Origin: Buchnera aphidicola (Mindarus abietinus)
GTDB lineage: Bacteria > Pseudomonadota > Gammaproteobacteria > Enterobacterales > Enterobacteriaceae
Length of the DNA: 64,000 bases
Direction: 5' to 3'
Assembly: GCF_964059085.1 (NCBI RefSeq)
Contig: NZ_OZ060398.1
Location: 75,364 to 139,363 of the forward strand
The number at the start of each line of letters is the position of its first letter. Position 1 is the stretch's first letter. Positions 38,063 through 47,655 of the stretch are shown piece by piece. The translations under genes and the position numbers were made by a program. The notes beneath the pieces were generated by a model. It saw nothing but the letters and a program-made list of their open reading frames with translations. It had not been told where the DNA came from and did not search any database.

Positions 38063-39181
38063 ATGCGAAATACAGAAGAAGGTATGGATTTACCGCAGTC
38101 TGTTTTTTCTTTTATGTTTATAGCTTTAATGATGTTTATTAGTTTTTGGGTACTTCGTCCTTTTTTATTGAGTTTTTTATGGGCTAGTATGGTGGTGATA
38201 GCAACTTGGCCTCTTATGTTAAAAATTCAAAATTTGTTAGGAGGAAAACGTTTTTTAGCAGTAGGTGTTATGACTACTGGATTACTAATTCTATTGTTTG
38301 TTCCTGTAATATGTGTAATTAATAGTTTAATTGATACTAGTATTCCTTTTATTAATTGTTTTATATCTGGAAATTTTAGCTTTCCTAATTTAATTTGGTT
38401 GCAGGATATACCAATTATAGGAAAAAAATTATTTTTTTCTTATCAAAAATTATTAAATGGAGGAGGAGGATTATTAATTAGCCAAGTACAACCTTATATA
38501 GGGAAAACAACTTATTTTTTTGTAACTCAAGTTGAAAATATTGGTCATTGCTTTATACATCTTGTTTTTACAGCAATATTCAGTACTTTTCTTTATTGGA
38601 AAGGAGAAAAAATTGCCCATGTTCTACGATATTTTGCTTTTAGATTAGCAGATCAATCAGGAGATGCAGTAGTTTTATTAGCAGGTCAGGCTGTTAGATC
38701 TGTTGCTTTAGGTGTTGTTGTAACAGCATTTATTCAAGGAATGTTAGCTGGAATGGGATTAGTAATTTCAGGTATTCCTTATTCTGCTTTATTGATGTTA
38801 TTAATGTTTTCATTGTGTTTAATTCAGTTAGGTCCATTACCTGTATTAATTCCAGCTATAATTTGGTTGTTTTGGAAAAATGATGTTACGTTAGGAACGA
38901 TTCTGTTAATTTGGAGTTTTTTTCTTTTTATTTTAGATAATATATTACGTCCAATGATTATAAGAACAGGAGCAGATTTACCTATAATATTAATTTTATC
39001 AGGAGTAATAGGAGGGTTATTAGCGTTTGGAATGATAGGATTATTTATAGGCCCTGTTGTGTTGCTAATTTCTTATCGATTAATTACATCTTGGATGAAT
39101 GAAACTTCATATTCGGGATCAATATCCAAAAAAGTAATATATCAATTAAAAAAAAATATCTATAAAAAGAATATACAATAG
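38063..39181 (+). CDS. ydiK: AI-2E family transporter-like membrane protein YdiK
   Basis: 372 residues, eight predicted membrane helices in the PerM/AI-2E pattern: two pairs at the N-terminus, a long loop, then the conserved VALGVVVTAFIQGMLAGMG, LGPLPVLIPAIIWL and GADLPIILILSGVIGGLLAFGMIGLFIGPVVL. The start at 38063 gives the same distance to the first helix as in E. coli YdiK; ATG 38051 is the alternative. Substrate unknown; family members export small molecules. Its retention in such a small genome suggests a useful transport role, but I cannot name it. Confidence 0.92.
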   Translation: MRNTEEGMDLPQSVFSFMFIALMMFISFWVLRPFLLSFLWASMVVIATWPLMLKIQNLLGGKRFLAVGVMTTGLLILLFVPVICVINSLIDTSIPFINCFISGNFSFPNLIWLQDIPIIGKKLFFSYQKLLNGGGGLLISQVQPYIGKTTYFFVTQVENIGHCFIHLVFTAIFSTFLYWKGEKIAHVLRYFAFRLADQSGDAVVLLAGQAVRSVALGVVVTAFIQGMLAGMGLVISGIPYSALLMLLMFSLCLIQLGPLPVLIPAIIWLFWKNDVTLGTILLIWSFFLFILDNILRPMIIRTGADLPIILILSGVIGGLLAFGMIGLFIGPVVLLISYRLITSWMNETSYSGSISKKVIYQLKKNIYKKNIQ

Positions 39182-39753
39182 TCAGGAGGAGGGATTTATT
39201 TCAGTATATTTTTTTTTAAAATTATAAATTAGTAGTTATTAACTAATAATTTAATATATATAATATTAAAAATATTTATTTTTATATATTGAAAGTTAAT
39301 GTTATGTTTTTTATAAATAAAAAACTAAAAATTTTTTAAAAAACCTACATTAAGCATGCAATTTAAATTTTTTTTATTAAATACTTTTTAAAATTTAAGC
39401 AATTTAAACATATAAAAATGTAATTATTAATATCTAGATGCAAATTTATATTAAATTAAAAAATATTTTTCAAAAAATGTTTTTAAATATAAAAAATATA
39501 TTGGTACTAATTAAATATATGAAAAAATGCATACAAATTATTAAAAATATAAAAATATTTTATTAAAAAAATTTTTTTCTTTATTTTCTTTTGAAAAGAA
39601 TTTATATGATTTTAAAGAAAGTATATATATTTTTATAACTTATATAATTTATTAATATAGATAAATATCTTTTGTAATTAATAATTATTAATAAATAATT
39701 AATTATGACTTATTATTCTTTTCAGAATACAAAAAACTCATTTAGAGAAAAAA
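39182..39753. other. Longest gene-free stretch, between ydiK and aroH
   Basis: 572 bases with no credible gene on either strand. A very strong ribosome-binding-like sequence (AGGAGGAGG, 39184-39192) sits right after the ydiK stop but only a 12-codon frame from a non-standard start follows. The rest is A/T with short weak inverted repeats. It may be a decayed gene plus the aroH promoter region. Confidence 0.5.
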
Positions 39754-40800
39754 ATGAAAAAAACAGATGAATTGCGTACAATAAGGATAGATCCATTAAT
39801 TACCCCTGTAGAATTAGCCAAACATCATTCTATCACTTCTGAAATTATGGATAATGTTATTAGTGCTAGAAAAAATGTTGCTAATATTATTACTGGAAAA
39901 GATTCACGTTTATTAGTTATTGTAGGGCCATGTTCAGTACATGATCCTGTAGCTGCTGTTGAATATGCTAACAAATTAAATACTTTGAGAAAAAAATATT
40001 CCTCTACTCTTGAAATTATTATGAGGACTTATTTTGAAAAACCTAGAACAGTAGTTGGTTGGAAGGGTTTAATTTCAGATCCTAATTTGGATAGTTCGTT
40101 CGATGTAAATTATGGATTGTCGATAGCTAGAAAATTATTATTAGATATCAATAAATTAGGCATGCCCGCAGCAACTGAATTTTTAGATATGGTTATAGGT
40201 CAATTCATAGCAGATCTCATTAGTTGGGGAGCAATTGGAGCTAGAACAACAGAAAGTCAAATTCATCGAGAAATGGCTTCTGCGCTATCTTGTCCTGTTG
40301 GTTTCAAAAATGGAACAGATGGAAATATTAGAATAGCAATAGATGCAATTCGAGCAGCTCAAGCAAGACATTTATTTCTAGCACCCGATAAACATGGAAA
40401 AATGACGATTAATCATACCAGTGGTAATCCTTTTTCTCATGTTATCATGAGAGGAGGTAAATCCCCAAATTATCATTCAGAAGATATTCTTTTTGCTGTT
40501 AAGCAACTAAAAGAATTTAATCTTTTAGAATATTTAATGGTTGATTTTAGTCATGGAAATTGTTTAAAAGAACACAAACGTCAATGTTCAGTATCGGATT
40601 CAATCTGTAAACAAATAAAAGATGGATCTAAATCTATATCTGGAGTTATGATTGAGAGTTTTTTAAAAGAAGGGTCACAGGAAGTTATAGAAGGTCAGAT
40701 TTTAAATTATGGTCAATCTATTACTGATCCTTGTTTAGGTTGGGATGATACTGTAATTATATTAAAAAATTTATCTAATGCGGTAAGTAGTCGATTTTAA
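39754..40800 (+). CDS. aroH: 3-deoxy-7-phosphoheptulonate synthase (AroH type)
   Basis: 348 residues, exactly the length of E. coli AroH. It joins phosphoenolpyruvate and erythrose-4-phosphate, the entry to the shikimate route. Signatures: LLVIVGPCSVHDP, MRTYFEKPRTVVGWKGLISDP, IGARTTESQIHREMAS, PVGFKNGTDGN, VDFSHGN and SITDPCLGW. MKKTDELRTIRIDPLITP at the N-terminus fits the tryptophan-sensitive AroH rather than AroF or AroG. Single gene with a strong terminator. Confidence 0.95.
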   Translation: MKKTDELRTIRIDPLITPVELAKHHSITSEIMDNVISARKNVANIITGKDSRLLVIVGPCSVHDPVAAVEYANKLNTLRKKYSSTLEIIMRTYFEKPRTVVGWKGLISDPNLDSSFDVNYGLSIARKLLLDINKLGMPAATEFLDMVIGQFIADLISWGAIGARTTESQIHREMASALSCPVGFKNGTDGNIRIAIDAIRAAQARHLFLAPDKHGKMTINHTSGNPFSHVIMRGGKSPNYHSEDILFAVKQLKEFNLLEYLMVDFSHGNCLKEHKRQCSVSDSICKQIKDGSKSISGVMIESFLKEGSQEVIEGQILNYGQSITDPCLGWDDTVIILKNLSNAVSSRF

Positions 40801-40806
40801 TTTTTT

Positions 40807-40838
40807 AATGCTAGTCAAAAAATAGACTAGCATTTTTT
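40807..40838 (+). terminator. Rho-independent terminator of aroH
   Basis: A perfect 10-bp stem (arm AATGCTAGTC, 40807-40816 with 40825-40834), loop of eight A/T bases, followed directly by TTTT. It begins seven bases after the aroH stop. Classic form and one of the best terminators in the window. Confidence 0.85.
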
Positions 40839-40956
40839 AATTTAATTTTCTGACATTAGTAATTACTACATAATTTTTAATCAAATTTAATAATTTAAAA
40901 TAATTTTTATTATATTAAAAACATTTTAATAAAAAAATAAAATTAAGGATTTCTAA

Positions 40957-42882
40957 ATGCCCATTATCACGTTTCTTGATGGTCATCATCAAGTTTACAA
41001 TAAATCAGTTTCATTGTTAGAAATTGCTGATAATGCTGGATTTAATGTTTCTAAAATTATTATAGCAGGTATTGTTAATAATATTCTTGTAGATATAGAA
41101 ACAATAATTAATGAAGATAGCAATGTAGAATTTGTTACAATTAAAGATAAATTAGCTTTAAATCTTATTCGGTTTTCTACCATGCAGCTTTTAGCATATT
41201 CTGTAAAAAAAATTTGGCCGGATGCAAAAATAGCAACTGGGTCTATTACAGAAAATGGTTTTTATTATGATTTTGATTTAAATCGATCCTTAACATTACA
41301 GGATATCGAATTGATTCAAGAAAAAATGAAGAAATTATCTCAAAAAAAATATAAAATAATAAAAAAACAAGTTCAATGGAATGAAGTTTACGAGTTATAT
41401 AAAAAAAAACAAGAATTGTATAAAATCGATGAACTTGAAAAAAAATATAAAAATATAGAAACATTATTTCTATATTATCATGAAAAAAATGTTGATTTTT
41501 ATGGACCACAGGTAGCAAATATTAAGTTATGTCGATTTTTTAGATTATTGAAAGTTTCAGGTGCTTACTGGAAGAAAAATAAAGATAATAAAATGTTACA
41601 ACGTATTTATGGAACTGCATGGGTTAATAAAGAAGAATTAAGAAAATATTTGTTAAATCTTAAAAAATCAAAAGAATGTGATCATCGAAAAATTTCTAAA
41701 AAATTAAATTTATTTCATATTCAAAAAGATTCTCCGGGAATGGTTTTTTGGCATGATAGCGGGTGGATTATTTTTAGGGAATTAGAGAATTTAATTCGAT
41801 CGAAATTAGTAACTTATAAATATCAAGAAGTAAAAAGTCCACTGATAATGGATAAAATTTTATGGGAAAAAAGCGGACATTTAGAAAATTATTTCGAAAA
41901 TATATTTAGTACAATTTCTGAAAATAAAATTTACTGTATTAAACCTATGAATTGTCCTGGACATATACAAATATTTAATACTGGAATCAAGTCATATAGA
42001 GATCTTCCTATTAGAATGGCAGAATTTGGAATTTGTCATAGAAATGAATCTTCAGGTTCTTTACATGGTTTAATGAGAGTTAGATCGTTTACACAAGATG
42101 ATGGACATATATTTTGTACTCCCGATCAAGTTCGGTCAGAAATTACTAATTGTATAAAAATGATTTATGACATCTATCATCTATTAGGATTTGAAAAAAT
42201 TCAAGTTAAATTATCCACTAGACCAAAGCAAAGAATCGGTAGTAATTTTGTTTGGGATCAAGCAGAGTTAGACTTATCTGAAGTATTAAAAGAAAATAAT
42301 ATAAAATTTAAATATCAAATCGGAGAAGGAGCATTTTATGGTCCAAAAATAGAATTTTCTTTTTCCGATAATTTACAACGAATTTGGCAATGTGGAACTA
42401 TTCAACTTGATTTTTATTTACCTGAACGATTAAATGCTTTTTATATAAATAAAAAAAATAAAAAAAAGCCAGTAGTATTAATTCATAGAGCAATTTTAGG
42501 TTCGATGGAAAGATTTATTGGAATTTTAATAGAAGAATATAAAGGAAAATTTCCAACTTGGTTATCTCCCATACAAGTAGCAATAATTAATGTCAATCAA
42601 ATTCATGTTAATTATGCAAGGAAATTAGCTAAAAAAATGTTAGAATTAGGAATTCGTGTTAAATTAGATTTAAGAAAAGAATCTGTTAGCTTTAAAATTA
42701 GGTATTATACAACAAAATATATTCCTTATATTATAATTTGTGGAGATAAAGAAGTAAGAGACGATTTAGTTTCGTTTCGAACGAGTCAAGGAAATAATAT
42801 AAATAATCTTAAATTTAAAACTTTTCTTAAAAGAATAAAAGATGAGATTTTCACTCGTAGTTTTTTGCAAATGGAGGAATAA
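40957..42882 (+). CDS. thrS: Threonyl-tRNA synthetase with degenerate editing site
   Basis: 641 residues, one short of E. coli's 642. Domains: TGS (1-62), N2 editing domain (about 63-225), class II catalytic core (about 240-535) and anticodon-binding domain (540-641). The catalytic zinc ligands are kept (Cys in PMNCPGH, His in TQDDGHIF, His in VLIHRAILGSMERF). The editing-site metal residues are not: E. coli His73, His77, Cys182 and His186 correspond to Phe73, Gln77, Tyr182 and Gln185, and one residue is deleted between the last two. It starts the thrS-infC-rpmI-rplT-pheST cluster. Confidence 0.97.
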   Translation: MPIITFLDGHHQVYNKSVSLLEIADNAGFNVSKIIIAGIVNNILVDIETIINEDSNVEFVTIKDKLALNLIRFSTMQLLAYSVKKIWPDAKIATGSITENGFYYDFDLNRSLTLQDIELIQEKMKKLSQKKYKIIKKQVQWNEVYELYKKKQELYKIDELEKKYKNIETLFLYYHEKNVDFYGPQVANIKLCRFFRLLKVSGAYWKKNKDNKMLQRIYGTAWVNKEELRKYLLNLKKSKECDHRKISKKLNLFHIQKDSPGMVFWHDSGWIIFRELENLIRSKLVTYKYQEVKSPLIMDKILWEKSGHLENYFENIFSTISENKIYCIKPMNCPGHIQIFNTGIKSYRDLPIRMAEFGICHRNESSGSLHGLMRVRSFTQDDGHIFCTPDQVRSEITNCIKMIYDIYHLLGFEKIQVKLSTRPKQRIGSNFVWDQAELDLSEVLKENNIKFKYQIGEGAFYGPKIEFSFSDNLQRIWQCGTIQLDFYLPERLNAFYINKKNKKKPVVLIHRAILGSMERFIGILIEEYKGKFPTWLSPIQVAIINVNQIHVNYARKLAKKMLELGIRVKLDLRKESVSFKIRYYTTKYIPYIIICGDKEVRDDLVSFRTSQGNNINNLKFKTFLKRIKDEIFTRSFLQMEE

Positions 42883-42888
42883 AGTATT
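42873..42888 (+). promoter_or_regulatory. Ribosome-binding site and AUU start of infC
   Basis: GGAGG (42873-42877) lies inside the thrS 3' end, eight bases before the ATT codon at 42886-42888. This non-standard start codon is the basis of infC autoregulation in E. coli, since IF3 itself rejects AUU initiation. Confidence 0.9.
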
Positions 42889-43428
42889 AAAGGCGGAAAA
42901 AGAATACATTCATCAAGAATGAATCGAATTAATCAAGAAATTCGAGCATCGGAAGTTCGTTTAACAGATGTTAAAGGCGATCAAATAGGTATTTTTAGTT
43001 TAAAAGATGCTTTAAAAAAAGCCGAAATTTTAGGAGTAGATTTAGTTGAAATAAGTCCTAATGCAACTCCACCAGTATGTAAAATGATGAATTATGGAAA
43101 ATTTTTATATGAAAAAACTAAATTGCTTAAAGAACAAAGAAAAAAGCAGAAGATTATTCAAATTAAAGAAATAAAATTTCGTCCTAGTACTGAAGTTGGA
43201 GATTATGCGGTAAAACTAAAAAAATTAATACGATTTTTGAAACATGGCGATAAAGTTAAAATCACATTACGTTTTAGAGGAAGAGAAATGGCGCATCAGG
43301 AAATAGGAATTAATATGTTAAAAAGAATAAAAAATGATTTGTTCCAATTTTCTGTTATAGAATATTTTCCTCGTAAAATAGAAGGTCGTCAAATGGTAAT
43401 GATTTTATCACCTAAAAAAAATAAATAA
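42886..43428 (+). CDS. infC: Translation initiation factor IF-3
   Basis: 180 residues, the E. coli length, only if translation starts at ATT 42886. The in-frame residues before the first ATG (42919) read [10 protein letters not shown], matching the conserved KGGKR start of IF3, so the ATG is not the start. N-domain with [14 protein letters not shown] and [26 protein letters not shown]-domain with [17 protein letters not shown] and [12 protein letters not shown]. It prevents premature subunit joining and checks initiator tRNA. It begins three bases after thrS. Confidence 0.96.
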
Positions 43429-43479
43429 AAAAAAATTTCTAAAAACATAATTTTTTATTAACAGAGAATAATTATTTTA

Positions 43480-43677
43480 ATGCCAAAAATTAAAACTTTA
43501 AAAAGTGCAGCTAAGCGCTTTAAAAAAACCGAATCAGGTAAATTTAAACGAAAACAAGCAAATTTAAGACATCTTTTAACAAAAAAAACAACTAATAGAA
43601 AACGTCATTTAAGATCGAAGATAGTTGTTTCTAAAAGTGATATCAACCGAATTATATCTTTTTTACCTTATGCATAA
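43480..43677 (+). CDS. rpmI: 50S ribosomal protein L35
   Basis: 65 residues, equal to E. coli. [20 protein letters not shown] at the start and [17 protein letters not shown] in the middle are diagnostic. It lies between infC and rplT as in most Proteobacteria, in the L20-autoregulated operon. A weak AGAGAA precedes the ATG. Confidence 0.97.
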
Positions 43678-43736
43678 TATCATAAACTAAAATACTAATA
43701 CAAGCATGTTCCATCGAGCATGTAGGGAGTTAAAAA

Positions 43737-44105
43737 ATGGCTCGTATAAAAAGAGGAACAGTCGCTCGAGCTCGTCATAAAAAAACTTTAAAAGAAGCAA
43801 AGGGGTATTATGGTGCTCGATCTAGAGCATATAGAATAGCAAATCAAGCTGTTATTAAAGCTGGTCAATATGCTTATAGAGATAGACGTCAAAAAAAACG
43901 TAAATTTCGTCAACTTTGGATTATAAGAATTAACGCTGCTATTCGATATCATCAAATGTCATACAGTAATTTTATTTTTGGTTTAAAAAAATCGTTAGTT
44001 AATATTAATCGAAAAGTTTTATCAGACATTGCAATTTCTGATAAGCTAGCTTTTAGCTTGCTAGTCAAAAAATCACAGTTAGCTTTGGAGAATACGTCCG
44101 CATAA
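43737..44105 (+). CDS. rplT: 50S ribosomal protein L20
   Basis: 122 residues. [61 protein letters not shown] core (seen as consecutive conserved segments) and the C-terminal globular domain are intact. L20 starts 50S assembly and in E. coli represses its own operon by binding mRNA. The spacer before it has an unusual GC-rich islet, and TAGGGAG serves as the ribosome-binding site. Confidence 0.97.
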
Positions 44106-44143
44106 ATTTTTTCTTAATTTATATAACTAAATAAAAAAAAAAC

Positions 44144-44180
44144 AAGAGGAGGGAACTTTATATTCCCTCTTTTTATTTTT
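44144..44180 (+). terminator. Terminator/attenuator-like hairpin before pheS
   Basis: A 12-bp stem with two G-U pairs (44144-44155 with 44163-44174, core GAGGGAA/TTCCCTC), a 7-base loop and a T-rich tail. It occupies the place of the pheST attenuator of E. coli, but no PheM-like Phe-rich leader frame with a start codon precedes it. It probably ends or trims the rplT transcript. Confidence 0.8.
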
Positions 44181-44227
44181 TCATTTTTTTAAAAAATGAT
44201 AGATAAAGATTAATAAAGGTAATAAAA

Positions 44228-45232
44228 TTGAGCATATATGATGAAATTACATCGGTTTTAAAAAAAACTAAATTATTTAAAACTAACATTATAAAAATAA
44301 AAGATATTAAAGAATTAGAATTAAAAAAAATAATCTTTCTTGGAAAAAAAGGAATTTTTTCTGAAATTTTTAAAAAAATGTCTTGTTTATGTCAATTAGA
44401 AAGAAAAAAATGGAGCATAGAAATAAATAAAATTAAAAAAGAAATTCAATATTTGATTAAATCTAAAGAAACTAAAATTTTAAACTCAAATTTACAAAAT
44501 AAAATTAATTCAGAAAAGATAGATGTTACCCTTCCTTGTAAACGATTTAATATTGGTTCTATACACCCAATTAGTAAAACCATATATGAAATAGAAGATT
44601 ATTTTTCTAAAATGGGTTTTAATGTAGTTAATGGTAATTTCGAAATAGAAGATGAATATCATAATTTTGATGCTCTTAATATTCCTAAAGATCATCCAGC
44701 AAGAGAATCTCATGATACTTTTTGGATAAATAACAATTATTTATTACGAACTCAAATGTCTAGTATGCAAATTAGAATACTAAAAGAAAATAAATTTCCT
44801 GTGAAAACATTAGTATCAGGAAAAGCTTATCGTAATGATTACGATGCTAAACATACTCCCATGTTTCATCAAATAGAAGGACTAGTTATTGATAAAAAAA
44901 TAAATTTTTCTAATTTAAAATGGATAATGAGTTCATTTATCGATTCTTTTTTTAAAGAAAAAGTAACTAAACGTTTCAGAAGTTCTTTTTTTCCATTTAC
45001 AGTACCTTCAATGGAAGTTGATATTTTAAAAGAAGAAAAATATTGGATAGAAATATTAGGTTGTGGAATGGTGCATCCTACAATTTTAAAAAAAATAAAT
45101 GTTAATACTGATAAATATCAAGGATGTGCATTTGGAATGGGAGTAGAAAGACTAGTAATGTTACGTAATAAAGTTACTGATATTCGTTTATTTTTTGAAA
45201 ATGATTTGCGTTTTTTAAAACAATTTAAATAA
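44228..45232 (+). CDS. pheS: Phenylalanyl-tRNA synthetase alpha subunit
   Basis: 334 residues. Starts at TTG (MSIYDEI) with AAAGGTAA upstream; no ATG fits. An N-terminal coiled coil (about 1-90), then the class II catalytic domain with IEDEYHNFDALNIPKDHPARESHDTFW in separate conserved pieces, LLRTQMSSMQIR, RNDYDAKHTPMFHQIEGL, EILGCGMVHP and GMGVERLVMLR. It pairs with PheT into an alpha2-beta2 enzyme. pheT follows after about 20 bases. Confidence 0.96.
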   Translation: MSIYDEITSVLKKTKLFKTNIIKIKDIKELELKKIIFLGKKGIFSEIFKKMSCLCQLERKKWSIEINKIKKEIQYLIKSKETKILNSNLQNKINSEKIDVTLPCKRFNIGSIHPISKTIYEIEDYFSKMGFNVVNGNFEIEDEYHNFDALNIPKDHPARESHDTFWINNNYLLRTQMSSMQIRILKENKFPVKTLVSGKAYRNDYDAKHTPMFHQIEGLVIDKKINFSNLKWIMSSFIDSFFKEKVTKRFRSSFFPFTVPSMEVDILKEEKYWIEILGCGMVHPTILKKINVNTDKYQGCAFGMGVERLVMLRNKVTDIRLFFENDLRFLKQFK

Positions 45233-45252
45233 AAAATTAGGTGATATTTTTA

Positions 45253-47655
45253 ATGAAATTTAGTAAAAAATGGTTATTTGAGTGGATAAATCCTTTAGTT
45301 AATGGTGTAGAAATTTGTAATCAAATGACTCAAGCTGGATTAGAATCAGAAATATTGATTAATAAATCGAATCAATTTAAAAAAATAGTAGTAGGAAAAA
45401 TTATATATTGTGATATACATCCTAAATCTAAGAAATTAAAAATTCTTCAAGTTAAAATAGAAAAAGAAAAAAATATTCAAGTTATTAGTAATGCTAAAAA
45501 TTGTAAAATAGGAATAAAAGTTGCTGTAGCTGTCAAAGGAAGTACAATTTTTAAAAATAAAAAAGTTTTTTCAAAAGTAATAATGAATGAATTATCCGAA
45601 GGAATATTGTGTTCATTTCAAGAATTAGGCATGTTTGATAACTATACCAATAATATAATTGAATTACCTTTTAATGCTTTAATTGGAGAAGATGTACAGA
45701 AATATTTTCCTTTAAATGATTCTATTATCAATATTAGTATTCCTTCTAATCGTGCTGATGTATTAGGAATTATTGGTATAGCAAGAGAAGTATCTGTTTT
45801 AAATAATTTAAATTTTTTTCAACTAAAAAAAAATTTTTTACCTGTTAAAATAAAAAGTTTAGGAAATATTAAAATATTAACTTGTAAAGAGTCTCCAAAA
45901 TATATAGGGAGAATTATTAAAAATGTTAATTTATCGGTAGATACTCCTTTTTGGATGAAAGAAAAATTAAGAAGTTCTCATATTTTTTTAGAAAAAAATA
46001 TTATTTTTAATATTATTAATTATGTATTGATTGAATTAAATCAACCTTTACATATATGTTCCTGGAACAGTAATAATATAAATTTAAAAGTTCGATTTTC
46101 TAAAAAAAATGAGATATTTAAAATAAAAGAAAAAAAATCAATCATTTTAGAAAAAAAAATAGTTGTTGTTACAAATAAAAAATCAGAAATAATTTTTATA
46201 CCTTCTGGTTTAAATTCAAAAGATAATGCAATTTCTTTTAATACTAGCAATGTTCTTTTAAGTAGTATTTTTTTAACTCCTGAATATGCTAAAACTTTAT
46301 CAAATCATAAATATATTTCTCATAAGATTCTAGAAACGTATAAAAGAGGAATAGATTTTAAGTTACAAACTTATGCTGTAGAGTATGCTACTGCATTAGT
46401 AGTACAAATTTGTGGAGGTTTTTCAGGATCGATTATAAAAGAGAATGTATTCTCTAATTATTTTAAAGAAAAAAAAGTTTTTTTACATTTAGAAAAAATT
46501 AAAAAAATTTTAGGATATACAATAAATATTATTGAAATAAAAAAAATTTTAATTAATTTAGGATTTGAATTATCAGAGTACAAAGATAATATTTGGAGAG
46601 TAATTATACCTACATGGCGTTATGATCTTTTTTTTGAAGAAGATATTATTTCTGAAATAATTCGAATAAAAGGATGTAATAAAATTCTTTCTACTCCAAT
46701 AAAATCAAAAAATATTGTTAATAAAAAAAATGAGCTTTTATTTTGTTTAAAAGACATAAAAAATATGTTTCTTTATAAAGGTTATAGTGAAATAATCAGT
46801 TATTCTTTTATAAATCCTTTACAGCAAAATTATTTTATTAAAAATGAAAAAACAATCAATTTATTAAATCCTATTTCAATAGAAATGTCTTCTATGAGAC
46901 AAACATTATTTGTTGGTTTATTAAACACTATTGCATATAATCAAAATAGACAAGAAACATCTATTCGTTTATTTGAAACAGGTTTATGTTTTAAAATTAA
47001 TGAAAATAAAGAATTTGAAATAAAACAAGAATTATTTATTTCTGGAGCAATAAGCGGGGCTATAACAGAGAAACATTGGAATATAGCAGATAGAAAATTA
47101 AATTATTTTGATTTGAAAGATGATTTAGAATCTATGTTTTTTTTAACGGGTTATCATTCTAGTATTTCTTTTTTTCCTAAAATTTTCCCTGGATTACATT
47201 GTCAACAAAGTGCAGAAATATTATTAAATGACATATCAATTGGGAGAATTGGTACTTTAAACCCAATTTTAATTAAGAAATTTAATTTAAAAGATATTGT
47301 TTTTTTATTTGAAATATCAATTAAAAATTTATTTCCTTTCAATTTTTTTAGTATTAAAAATATTTCCGTTTATCCAAGTAGTAATAAGGATATATCATTC
47401 TTAATATCTGATAAAATTTTTTTTAATGATGTTTACAAAGAATGTCAATTAATATCACCTAAAAATATAAAAAAAGTTTCTTTAATAGATATATATACTG
47501 ATAAAAAATTTTTTAAAGGAATGAAAAGCATGACAATTAGTTTATTTTTTCAAAATCAGTTTAAAACGTTAATGGAAGATGAAATTTTAAAGTTAGTAGA
47601 AAAATGTATTTTACGATTAAAAGCCAAGTTTAATATTATTTTAAGAAATAAATAG
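45253..47655 (+). CDS. pheT: Phenylalanyl-tRNA synthetase beta subunit with degenerate editing domain
   Basis: 800 residues from MKFSKKWLFEW, close to 795 in E. coli; AGGTGA lies before this ATG, so GTG 45241 is rejected. Order: EMAP/tRNA-binding domain (about 40-150), B3/B4 editing domain (about 215-410), B5 (about 410-480), catalytic-like domain and C-terminal anticodon-binding domain. Most of the family is well kept, but the B3/B4 editing pocket is not: positions matching E. coli Gly318, Glu334 and Thr354 are Asn321, Ser337 and His357, and the conserved MGGIFGG loop is lost. Confidence 0.96.
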   Translation: MKFSKKWLFEWINPLVNGVEICNQMTQAGLESEILINKSNQFKKIVVGKIIYCDIHPKSKKLKILQVKIEKEKNIQVISNAKNCKIGIKVAVAVKGSTIFKNKKVFSKVIMNELSEGILCSFQELGMFDNYTNNIIELPFNALIGEDVQKYFPLNDSIINISIPSNRADVLGIIGIAREVSVLNNLNFFQLKKNFLPVKIKSLGNIKILTCKESPKYIGRIIKNVNLSVDTPFWMKEKLRSSHIFLEKNIIFNIINYVLIELNQPLHICSWNSNNINLKVRFSKKNEIFKIKEKKSIILEKKIVVVTNKKSEIIFIPSGLNSKDNAISFNTSNVLLSSIFLTPEYAKTLSNHKYISHKILETYKRGIDFKLQTYAVEYATALVVQICGGFSGSIIKENVFSNYFKEKKVFLHLEKIKKILGYTINIIEIKKILINLGFELSEYKDNIWRVIIPTWRYDLFFEEDIISEIIRIKGCNKILSTPIKSKNIVNKKNELLFCLKDIKNMFLYKGYSEIISYSFINPLQQNYFIKNEKTINLLNPISIEMSSMRQTLFVGLLNTIAYNQNRQETSIRLFETGLCFKINENKEFEIKQELFISGAISGAITEKHWNIADRKLNYFDLKDDLESMFFLTGYHSSISFFPKIFPGLHCQQSAEILLNDISIGRIGTLNPILIKKFNLKDIVFLFEISIKNLFPFNFFSIKNISVYPSSNKDISFLISDKIFFNDVYKECQLISPKNIKKVSLIDIYTDKKFFKGMKSMTISLFFQNQFKTLMEDEILKLVEKCILRLKAKFNIILRNK

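Follow-up and report, generated by a model that had tools for sequence, protein, structure and literature searches.

The window analysed here, a stretch of 64,000 nucleotides (contig NZ_OZ060398.1, positions 75,364 to 139,363, forward strand), carries the thrS gene of a genome of 551,523 bases (97.9% complete), and our subject is the editing site of the threonyl-tRNA synthetase (ThrRS) that this gene encodes. The thrS frame is open from its ATG start, with neither frameshift nor stop (Table 1), and the protein aligned end to end with residues 1-642 of E. coli ThrRS (1qf6; phmmer). Only one other gene of the same genome, that of ProRS, matched the window ThrRS. The best relative in a protein search was a Buchnera aphidicola ThrRS (P0002, 82% identity), which is the same protein as that of the congener G002; from the name of this relative we infer that the window genome, reduced as it is, belongs to a host-bound bacterium. 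Pfam matches and the alignment revealed a bacterial ThrRS with N1-N2: a class II core with the zinc ligands C334, H385 and H511 (E. coli numbering), an anticodon-binding domain, and a full-length N1-N2 fold whose N2 part, in the predicted structure, still resembles the E. coli editing domain. An initial annotation of this DNA had described a full-length editing domain beside intact catalytic zinc ligands, and both descriptions held, with the residues for charging intact as well.

Table 1. Features of the window named in the text (positions count from the first letter of the window).
Feature	Position	Strand	Basis or remark
thrS, threonyl-tRNA synthetase	40957..42882	+	open reading frame, PDB and Pfam matches; 641 aa, single copy
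N2 editing domain, window residues 63-223 (E. coli 63-224)	41143..41625	+	
Codon 73, TTT, Phe (E. coli H73)	41173..41175	+	alignment, codon reading
Codon 77, CAG, Gln (E. coli H77)	41185..41187	+	alignment, codon reading
Codon 156, AAA, Lys, kept (E. coli K156)	41422..41424	+	codon reading
Codon 180, GAT, Asp, kept (E. coli D180)	41494..41496	+	codon reading
Codon 182, TAT, Tyr at E. coli C182/R183, one-residue deletion	41500..41502	+	phmmer, MAFFT, codon reading
Codon 185, CAG, Gln (E. coli H186)	41509..41511	+	alignment, codon reading
Cys333 (E. coli C334), synthetic-site zinc ligand, kept	41953..41955	+	alignment
His384 (E. coli H385), synthetic-site zinc ligand, kept	42106..42108	+	alignment
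His510 (E. coli H511), synthetic-site zinc ligand, kept	42484..42486	+	alignment
pheT, PheRS beta subunit (match span)	45253..47646 (contig 120616-123009)	+	editing residues G318, E334, T354, A356 replaced

Against the four E. coli editing residues H73, H77, C182 and H186 (hereafter HHCH, in the motifs HxxxH and CxxxH), the window ThrRS reads F, Q, absent, Q, and neither motif is present. The codons, read directly, agreed with the initial annotation on Phe at 73, Gln at 77 and, after a one-residue deletion, Gln for H186. Its further claim that Cys182 had become Tyr was right in that no Cys is present, but the Tyr is only one of two ways to place the gap: the deletion can lie at C182 or at R183, phmmer and MAFFT both choose C182, and no Cys appears under either placement. 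Both congeners share the losses and the deletion, with Y, Q, -, Q in G001 and F, Q, -, Q in G002.

The damage is not confined to these four positions. We took as reference 29 rows, namely E. coli and the 28 top-scoring relatives described below, one reduced genome among them (L018, from G049), and counted how many of their invariant positions the window protein keeps: 56 of 99 in N2, 17 of 26 in N1, 32 of 52 in the anticodon-binding domain, and 164 of 199 in the catalytic core. If N2 losses fell at random, all four editing residues would be lost with a probability of 0.033. Because N2 keeps 56 of its 99 invariant positions and the core 164 of 199, the loss of the four residues is part of a broad decay of N2 and not a targeted hit. 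The domain had been called stripped of its chemistry, which is true of the four named residues but goes too far for the whole: K156 and D180, which we take to be relevant to editing, are kept, and N2 is under purifying selection (see below).

Alignment across Buchnera lineages showed that the losses are not peculiar to the window genus. Among 149 genomes of the family with thrS matches, we took the ThrRS DNA of 82: the 28 top-scoring loci outside the window genus, all 53 other genomes of up to 2.4 Mb (G049 being in both groups), G000 and G001; G002 came from another search. Residue readings came from 71 distinct genomes (72 rows), and the 67 family genomes left aside were all of at least 2.7 Mb. 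We refer to genomes as “Buchnera-type” on the basis of a FastTree tree of the ThrRS core and AlaRS, together with similar contig positions of thrS and alaS. The deep branches of this tree are poorly supported, and we therefore counted genomes and claim no number of independent losses. HHCH was kept in all 28 top-scoring loci read and in E. coli. In the set of up to 2.4 Mb (the 53 plus three of the window genus), N2 was absent from 11 genomes and G104 was unreadable, while among the other 44 the site was kept in 15 and lost in 29, the window genus included. All three synthetic-site zinc ligands, by contrast with the editing site, were kept in 72 of 72 rows. N2 was scored as absent where it was missing from the core's open reading frame and none of ten N1-N2 queries gave a tblastn match up to E 0.01 in the fetched stretch; of the 11 genomes concerned, all among the 53 and including the Buchnera-type G121, G007 has one weak match (E 0.002, 27% identity), and the match in G117 runs through 13 stops to residue 124 and may be a remnant.

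Within the Buchnera-type genomes (one per genus plus the two congeners), ThrRS is full-length in 14 of 15, the fifteenth having no N1-N2. H73 and H186 are kept in none of these 14, H77 in 3 and C182 in 2. As no full-length lineage of this sample retains either H73 or H186, the loss of ThrRS editing is probably old. In nine other genomes exactly one of the four residues has been lost, and in seven of them it is H73. A related genus with 35 genomes (without G157, whose thrS match comes in two overlapping pieces) mostly reads Y-Q-D-Q (22 of 35). In the protein search, HHCH was found in 82 of the 120 homologues listed (of 7998 scored) and in none of the 20 named Buchnera. A contig search also gave 80 loci of 41-47% identity, mostly from other Proteobacteria, which were not used further.

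Three records from these searches deserve mention in their own right. In the Buchnera-type relative G157, the thrS match (L271, G157:C1:3400-6000) falls into two overlapping pieces, as by a frameshift. On a 258 kb contig of the same family, G104 (L155) has seven in-frame TGA codons in its thrS match and five in its alaS match (G104:C1:135237-137462), which suggests that TGA may be read there as an amino acid; G104 was left out of the ThrRS and AlaRS tables. The third hit of the protein search (1120 bits), an 839-residue ENA protein (P0003) with HHCH intact, covers 76% of the query at 57% identity, a length and score odd enough that the record may be a fusion or a duplication.

N2 is under purifying selection in both clades, with omega far below 1. 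Fitting a GY-type codon model in scripts, we obtained an omega of 0.109 for N2 versus 0.046 for the catalytic core in the window genus, and of 0.15 versus 0.04 in the 35-genome related genus, values that are rough, given nearly saturated synonymous sites and a window-genus fit to three genomes. Site by site in the 35-genome set, 119 of 162 N2 positions were individually under purifying selection (uncorrected p < 0.05), and 27% of N2 sites fell in the most constrained class.

What the lost residues are worth can be read from E. coli, where the excerpted text of PMC4041444 gives a fall in editing kcat of 7000-fold for H73A, the most damaging of the single changes quoted, of 70-fold for H186A, and of more than 500-fold for C182A or C182S; these mutants carry Ala or Ser, unlike the Phe, Gln and Tyr of the window. 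The same excerpt corrects the term “metal residues” used in the initial annotation: purified E. coli ThrRS contains one zinc per monomer, its editing site is described as a putative metal site that does not bind zinc tightly, and the residues are catalytic, acting in a proposed substrate-assisted mechanism (PMC4041444). Because H73, C182 and H186 are each worth 70- to 7000-fold in E. coli, editing by the window enzyme is most likely dead, and the reading that we hold to be quite probable is that post-transfer editing has ceased and that N2 persists as a module for binding or handling tRNA. Post-transfer editing would then run at or near zero, N2 would be retained for positioning tRNA(Thr) in charging and perhaps for pre-transfer hydrolysis of Ser-AMP, and some serine would be tolerated at threonine codons.

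The loss had been presented as a feature of one ThrRS; it is real, but it is clade-wide, and other editing sites of the genome are damaged too. The homologous HHCH site of AlaRS was kept in 51 of 54 genomes of up to 2.4 Mb, as compared with 14 of the same 54 for ThrRS. The three exceptions are G008, where the gene is cut by the contig end (counted as not kept, though a second piece carries CGGTH), and the truncated genes of G079 and G124; G150, G161 and G168 were left out, and G053 (87% complete) gave no AlaRS match. For the other synthetases we examined 18 Buchnera-type genomes, the 15 above plus three further members of the related genus. The IleRS signature (T241, T242, T243, H333, D342) was kept in 18 of 18 and that of ValRS (TTRPET, K277, T279, D283) in 17, while the LeuRS signature (TTRPDT, D345) was complete in none, with a graded decay (e.g., T247 kept in 13 and D345 in 12), and the PheRS-beta residues (G318, E334, T354, A356) were likewise complete in none. 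None of the 23 Buchnera-type genomes read for ProRS, from the window genus plus 20 of the related one, retains H369. The window genome itself has lost the signature residues of ThrRS, LeuRS and PheRS and two of ProRS, and has kept those of IleRS, ValRS and AlaRS. Its LeuRS (L318, elsewhere in the genome) lacks the threonine-rich editing peptide, its pheT carries G318N, E334S and A356I (opposite T354 stands K or H, according to the alignment used), and its ProRS (L007, 567 aa) has K279Q and H369F; of the congeners, G001 has a ProRS of 436 aa that lacks the editing insertion (L384), and G002 has one of 574 aa with H369F (L385). Ten other small genomes displayed a softer split (IleRS complete in 6, ValRS in 8, LeuRS in 2, PheT in 1). 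Judged from these residues, the loss is probably selective: those for Ile, Val and Ala editing are kept, and those for Thr, Leu, Phe and probably Pro are lost or damaged.

Several observations weigh against this picture of dead editing, a retained N2 and selective loss. In the related genus, H73 and H77 each survive in 2 of 35 genomes. In both clades, purifying selection acts less strongly on N2 than on the core, and part of the constraint may reflect fold stability only. As the gene lacks N1-N2 in 11 of 53 family genomes, the domain is not strictly required for charging. The signature residues of LeuRS, IleRS, ValRS, PheRS and ProRS are, moreover, those that we take to be diagnostic. In the window genome, IleRS keeps TTT, H333 and D342 but has TTTIWS in place of TTTPWT, and PheT retains H265. 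Because ProRS still has E218 in 22, K279 in 20 and D350 in 22 of the 23 genomes, its loss of editing is uncertain in the relatives. Finally, altered editing-domain residues in a yeast enzyme hurt tRNA-dependent pre-transfer editing (PMC4267643, in its excerpted part), which counts against pre-transfer hydrolysis as a reason for retaining N2.

The absence of N1-N2 from those 11 genomes, the Buchnera-type G121 among them, together with the poorer retention of invariant positions in N2 than in the core, could also mean that the domain is useless dead weight whose deletion is merely pending. We consider this unlikely, in view of an omega far below 1 in both clades, of the 119 N2 sites individually under purifying selection, and of a window gene that has acquired neither frameshift nor stop.

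A further alternative is that the N2 pocket has been rewritten, so that it hydrolyses Ser-tRNA(Thr), or performs another reaction at the tRNA end, through different residues. Here, the evidence comes from the related genus (35 of its 36 genomes), where the new residues are nearly fixed (Q186 in 35 of 35, D182 in 34, Q77 in 33) alongside D180 (35 of 35) and K156 (34 of 35), and Q77 and Q186 are common to this genus and the window genus. At thresholds of 34 and 33 of 35 genomes, 2-3 of the four catalytic positions belong to the 4-8 N2 positions at which a new residue has become fixed; in this test, which drops L018 from the references, the hypergeometric P was 0.037 (threshold 34), 0.016 (33), 0.034 (32), 0.046 (31) and 0.18 (35). 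These P values are post hoc, however, with one threshold yielding the 0.18, and N2 has 27% of its sites in the most constrained class anyway. Position 73, moreover, drifts within the related genus (Y 25, C 3, R 3, H 2, S 1, N 1), and the window genus, with position 182 deleted, can have no D182 pocket. A rewritten catalytic pocket is, on balance, distinctly unlikely. A broader idea, which we regard as doubtful, is that the pocket was rewritten and frozen as N2 acquired a new, conserved role at the tRNA 3′ end, such as keeping tRNA(Thr) in place for charging or for pre-transfer proofreading, or carrying out hydrolysis with a different chemistry; proofreading in these symbionts would meanwhile have become stably divided, indispensable for Ile, Val and Ala but not for Thr, Leu, Phe and Pro. 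As a separate observation on the same domain, Y104 of N2 has become Cys in 32 and Ser in 3 of the 35 genomes of the related genus (g74; L142, L183-L212, L267-L270), with Tyr kept in the window genus, and H81Y and M190I are likewise fixed replacements in g74.

Clearance of Ser-tRNA(Thr) in trans by another factor, of the symbiont or of the host, has precedents in archaeal ThrRS-ed, in ProXp-ST and in the apo-T1 ThrRS of Anabaena (excerpted texts of PMC7373986 and PMC4787780). Yet, in the window genome, 97.9% complete, tRNA_SAD matched AlaRS and ThrRS only, with no AlaX (archaeal ThrRS-ed had no model of its own), neither a YbaK/ProX-type deacylase (PF04073) nor a DTD-type deacylase (PF02580) was found, and there was no second ThrRS. 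The window enzyme hence does not belong with the ThrRSs backed by AlaX, ProXp/YbaK, the DTD family or a second copy, and we rate clearance in trans as very improbable. As the three known trans-editing families were not found, Ser-tRNA(Thr) would have to be limited otherwise, by pre-transfer editing, EF-Tu or substrate levels, or else be tolerated. Serine misincorporation at threonine codons, as the initial annotation had predicted, is thus a reasonable expectation that pre-transfer editing of Ser-AMP or discrimination by EF-Tu could blunt; both are discussed in the excerpt of PMC4267643, according to which pre-transfer editing alone fails to prevent mischarging. Sequencing or assembly error at codons 73-186 has a negligible chance and was rejected, because both congeners, including G002, the public Buchnera aphidicola record behind P0002, carry the losses and the deletion, and the reading frame is open.

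Melnikov et al. (2018, PNAS) reportedly described the degeneration of editing domains in host-restricted bacteria. Degenerate editing sites in such bacteria are on record in texts that cite this work (PMC11020763, PMC6918089 and, in excerpt, PMC7373986), as are those of the ThrRS, PheRS and LeuRS of Mycoplasma (PMC4014445; PMC6918089 and PMC7373986, excerpted and citing Li et al. 2011). Since such losses are already published for both groups, the window ThrRS is a further case of a known phenomenon: as in the host-restricted bacteria of Melnikov et al., a small, host-bound genome carries mutated editing sites, with the synthetic site and core enzyme intact. Like Mycoplasma, it is damaged in ThrRS, PheRS and LeuRS; but whereas no Mycoplasma is known to have lost three or more functions (PMC7373986, in excerpt), the window genome is damaged in three and probably in a fourth (ProRS), in an independent lineage. 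The yeast mitochondrial ThrRS MST1 offers a precedent for a working ThrRS without post-transfer editing, as predicted here, but lacks the domain entirely (PMC4267643, in excerpt), whereas the N2 of the window is full length and constrained. The N2 editing domain is also impaired in Anabaena ThrRS T2, there by an insertion, with HxxxH and DxCRGPH still present, and T2 is a second copy that has T1 as its backup (PMC4787780, in excerpt); the window ThrRS, in contrast, is the sole copy and has lost the motifs. In the literature searched (titles and openings of abstracts, with subscription papers mostly outside the search), we found no paper on Buchnera ThrRS editing, nor the Buchnera-wide split into lost and kept sites or the constraint on an editing-dead N2, which may exist in subscription papers.

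The window ThrRS provides a concrete case, open to test, in which a much-studied mutualist would tolerate mistranslation, and the homologous HHCH sites within the same genomes, kept in AlaRS and lost in ThrRS, amount to a natural experiment on which translation errors cannot be afforded. The absence of known Mycoplasma genomes with three or more lost functions has been used to infer an upper limit on the editing loss that is tolerated (PMC7373986, in excerpt). Because the window genome shows damage in three, probably four, editing functions, this limit may be too low for insect symbionts.

No Rfam match was found up to E 0.1 within 39100-45600. That N1-N2 might be kept for autoregulation was considered unlikely: in the 160 bases upstream, compared by eye among the three congeners, there was no shared pair of stem-loops comparable to the E. 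coli leader. These bases align mainly around the ribosome-binding site and at a terminator-like hairpin, the leader being otherwise mostly unconserved. This hairpin (GCTAGTC..GACTAGC followed by T's) lies in 40801-40956, between the upstream aro gene and thrS, and is conserved in all three congeners.
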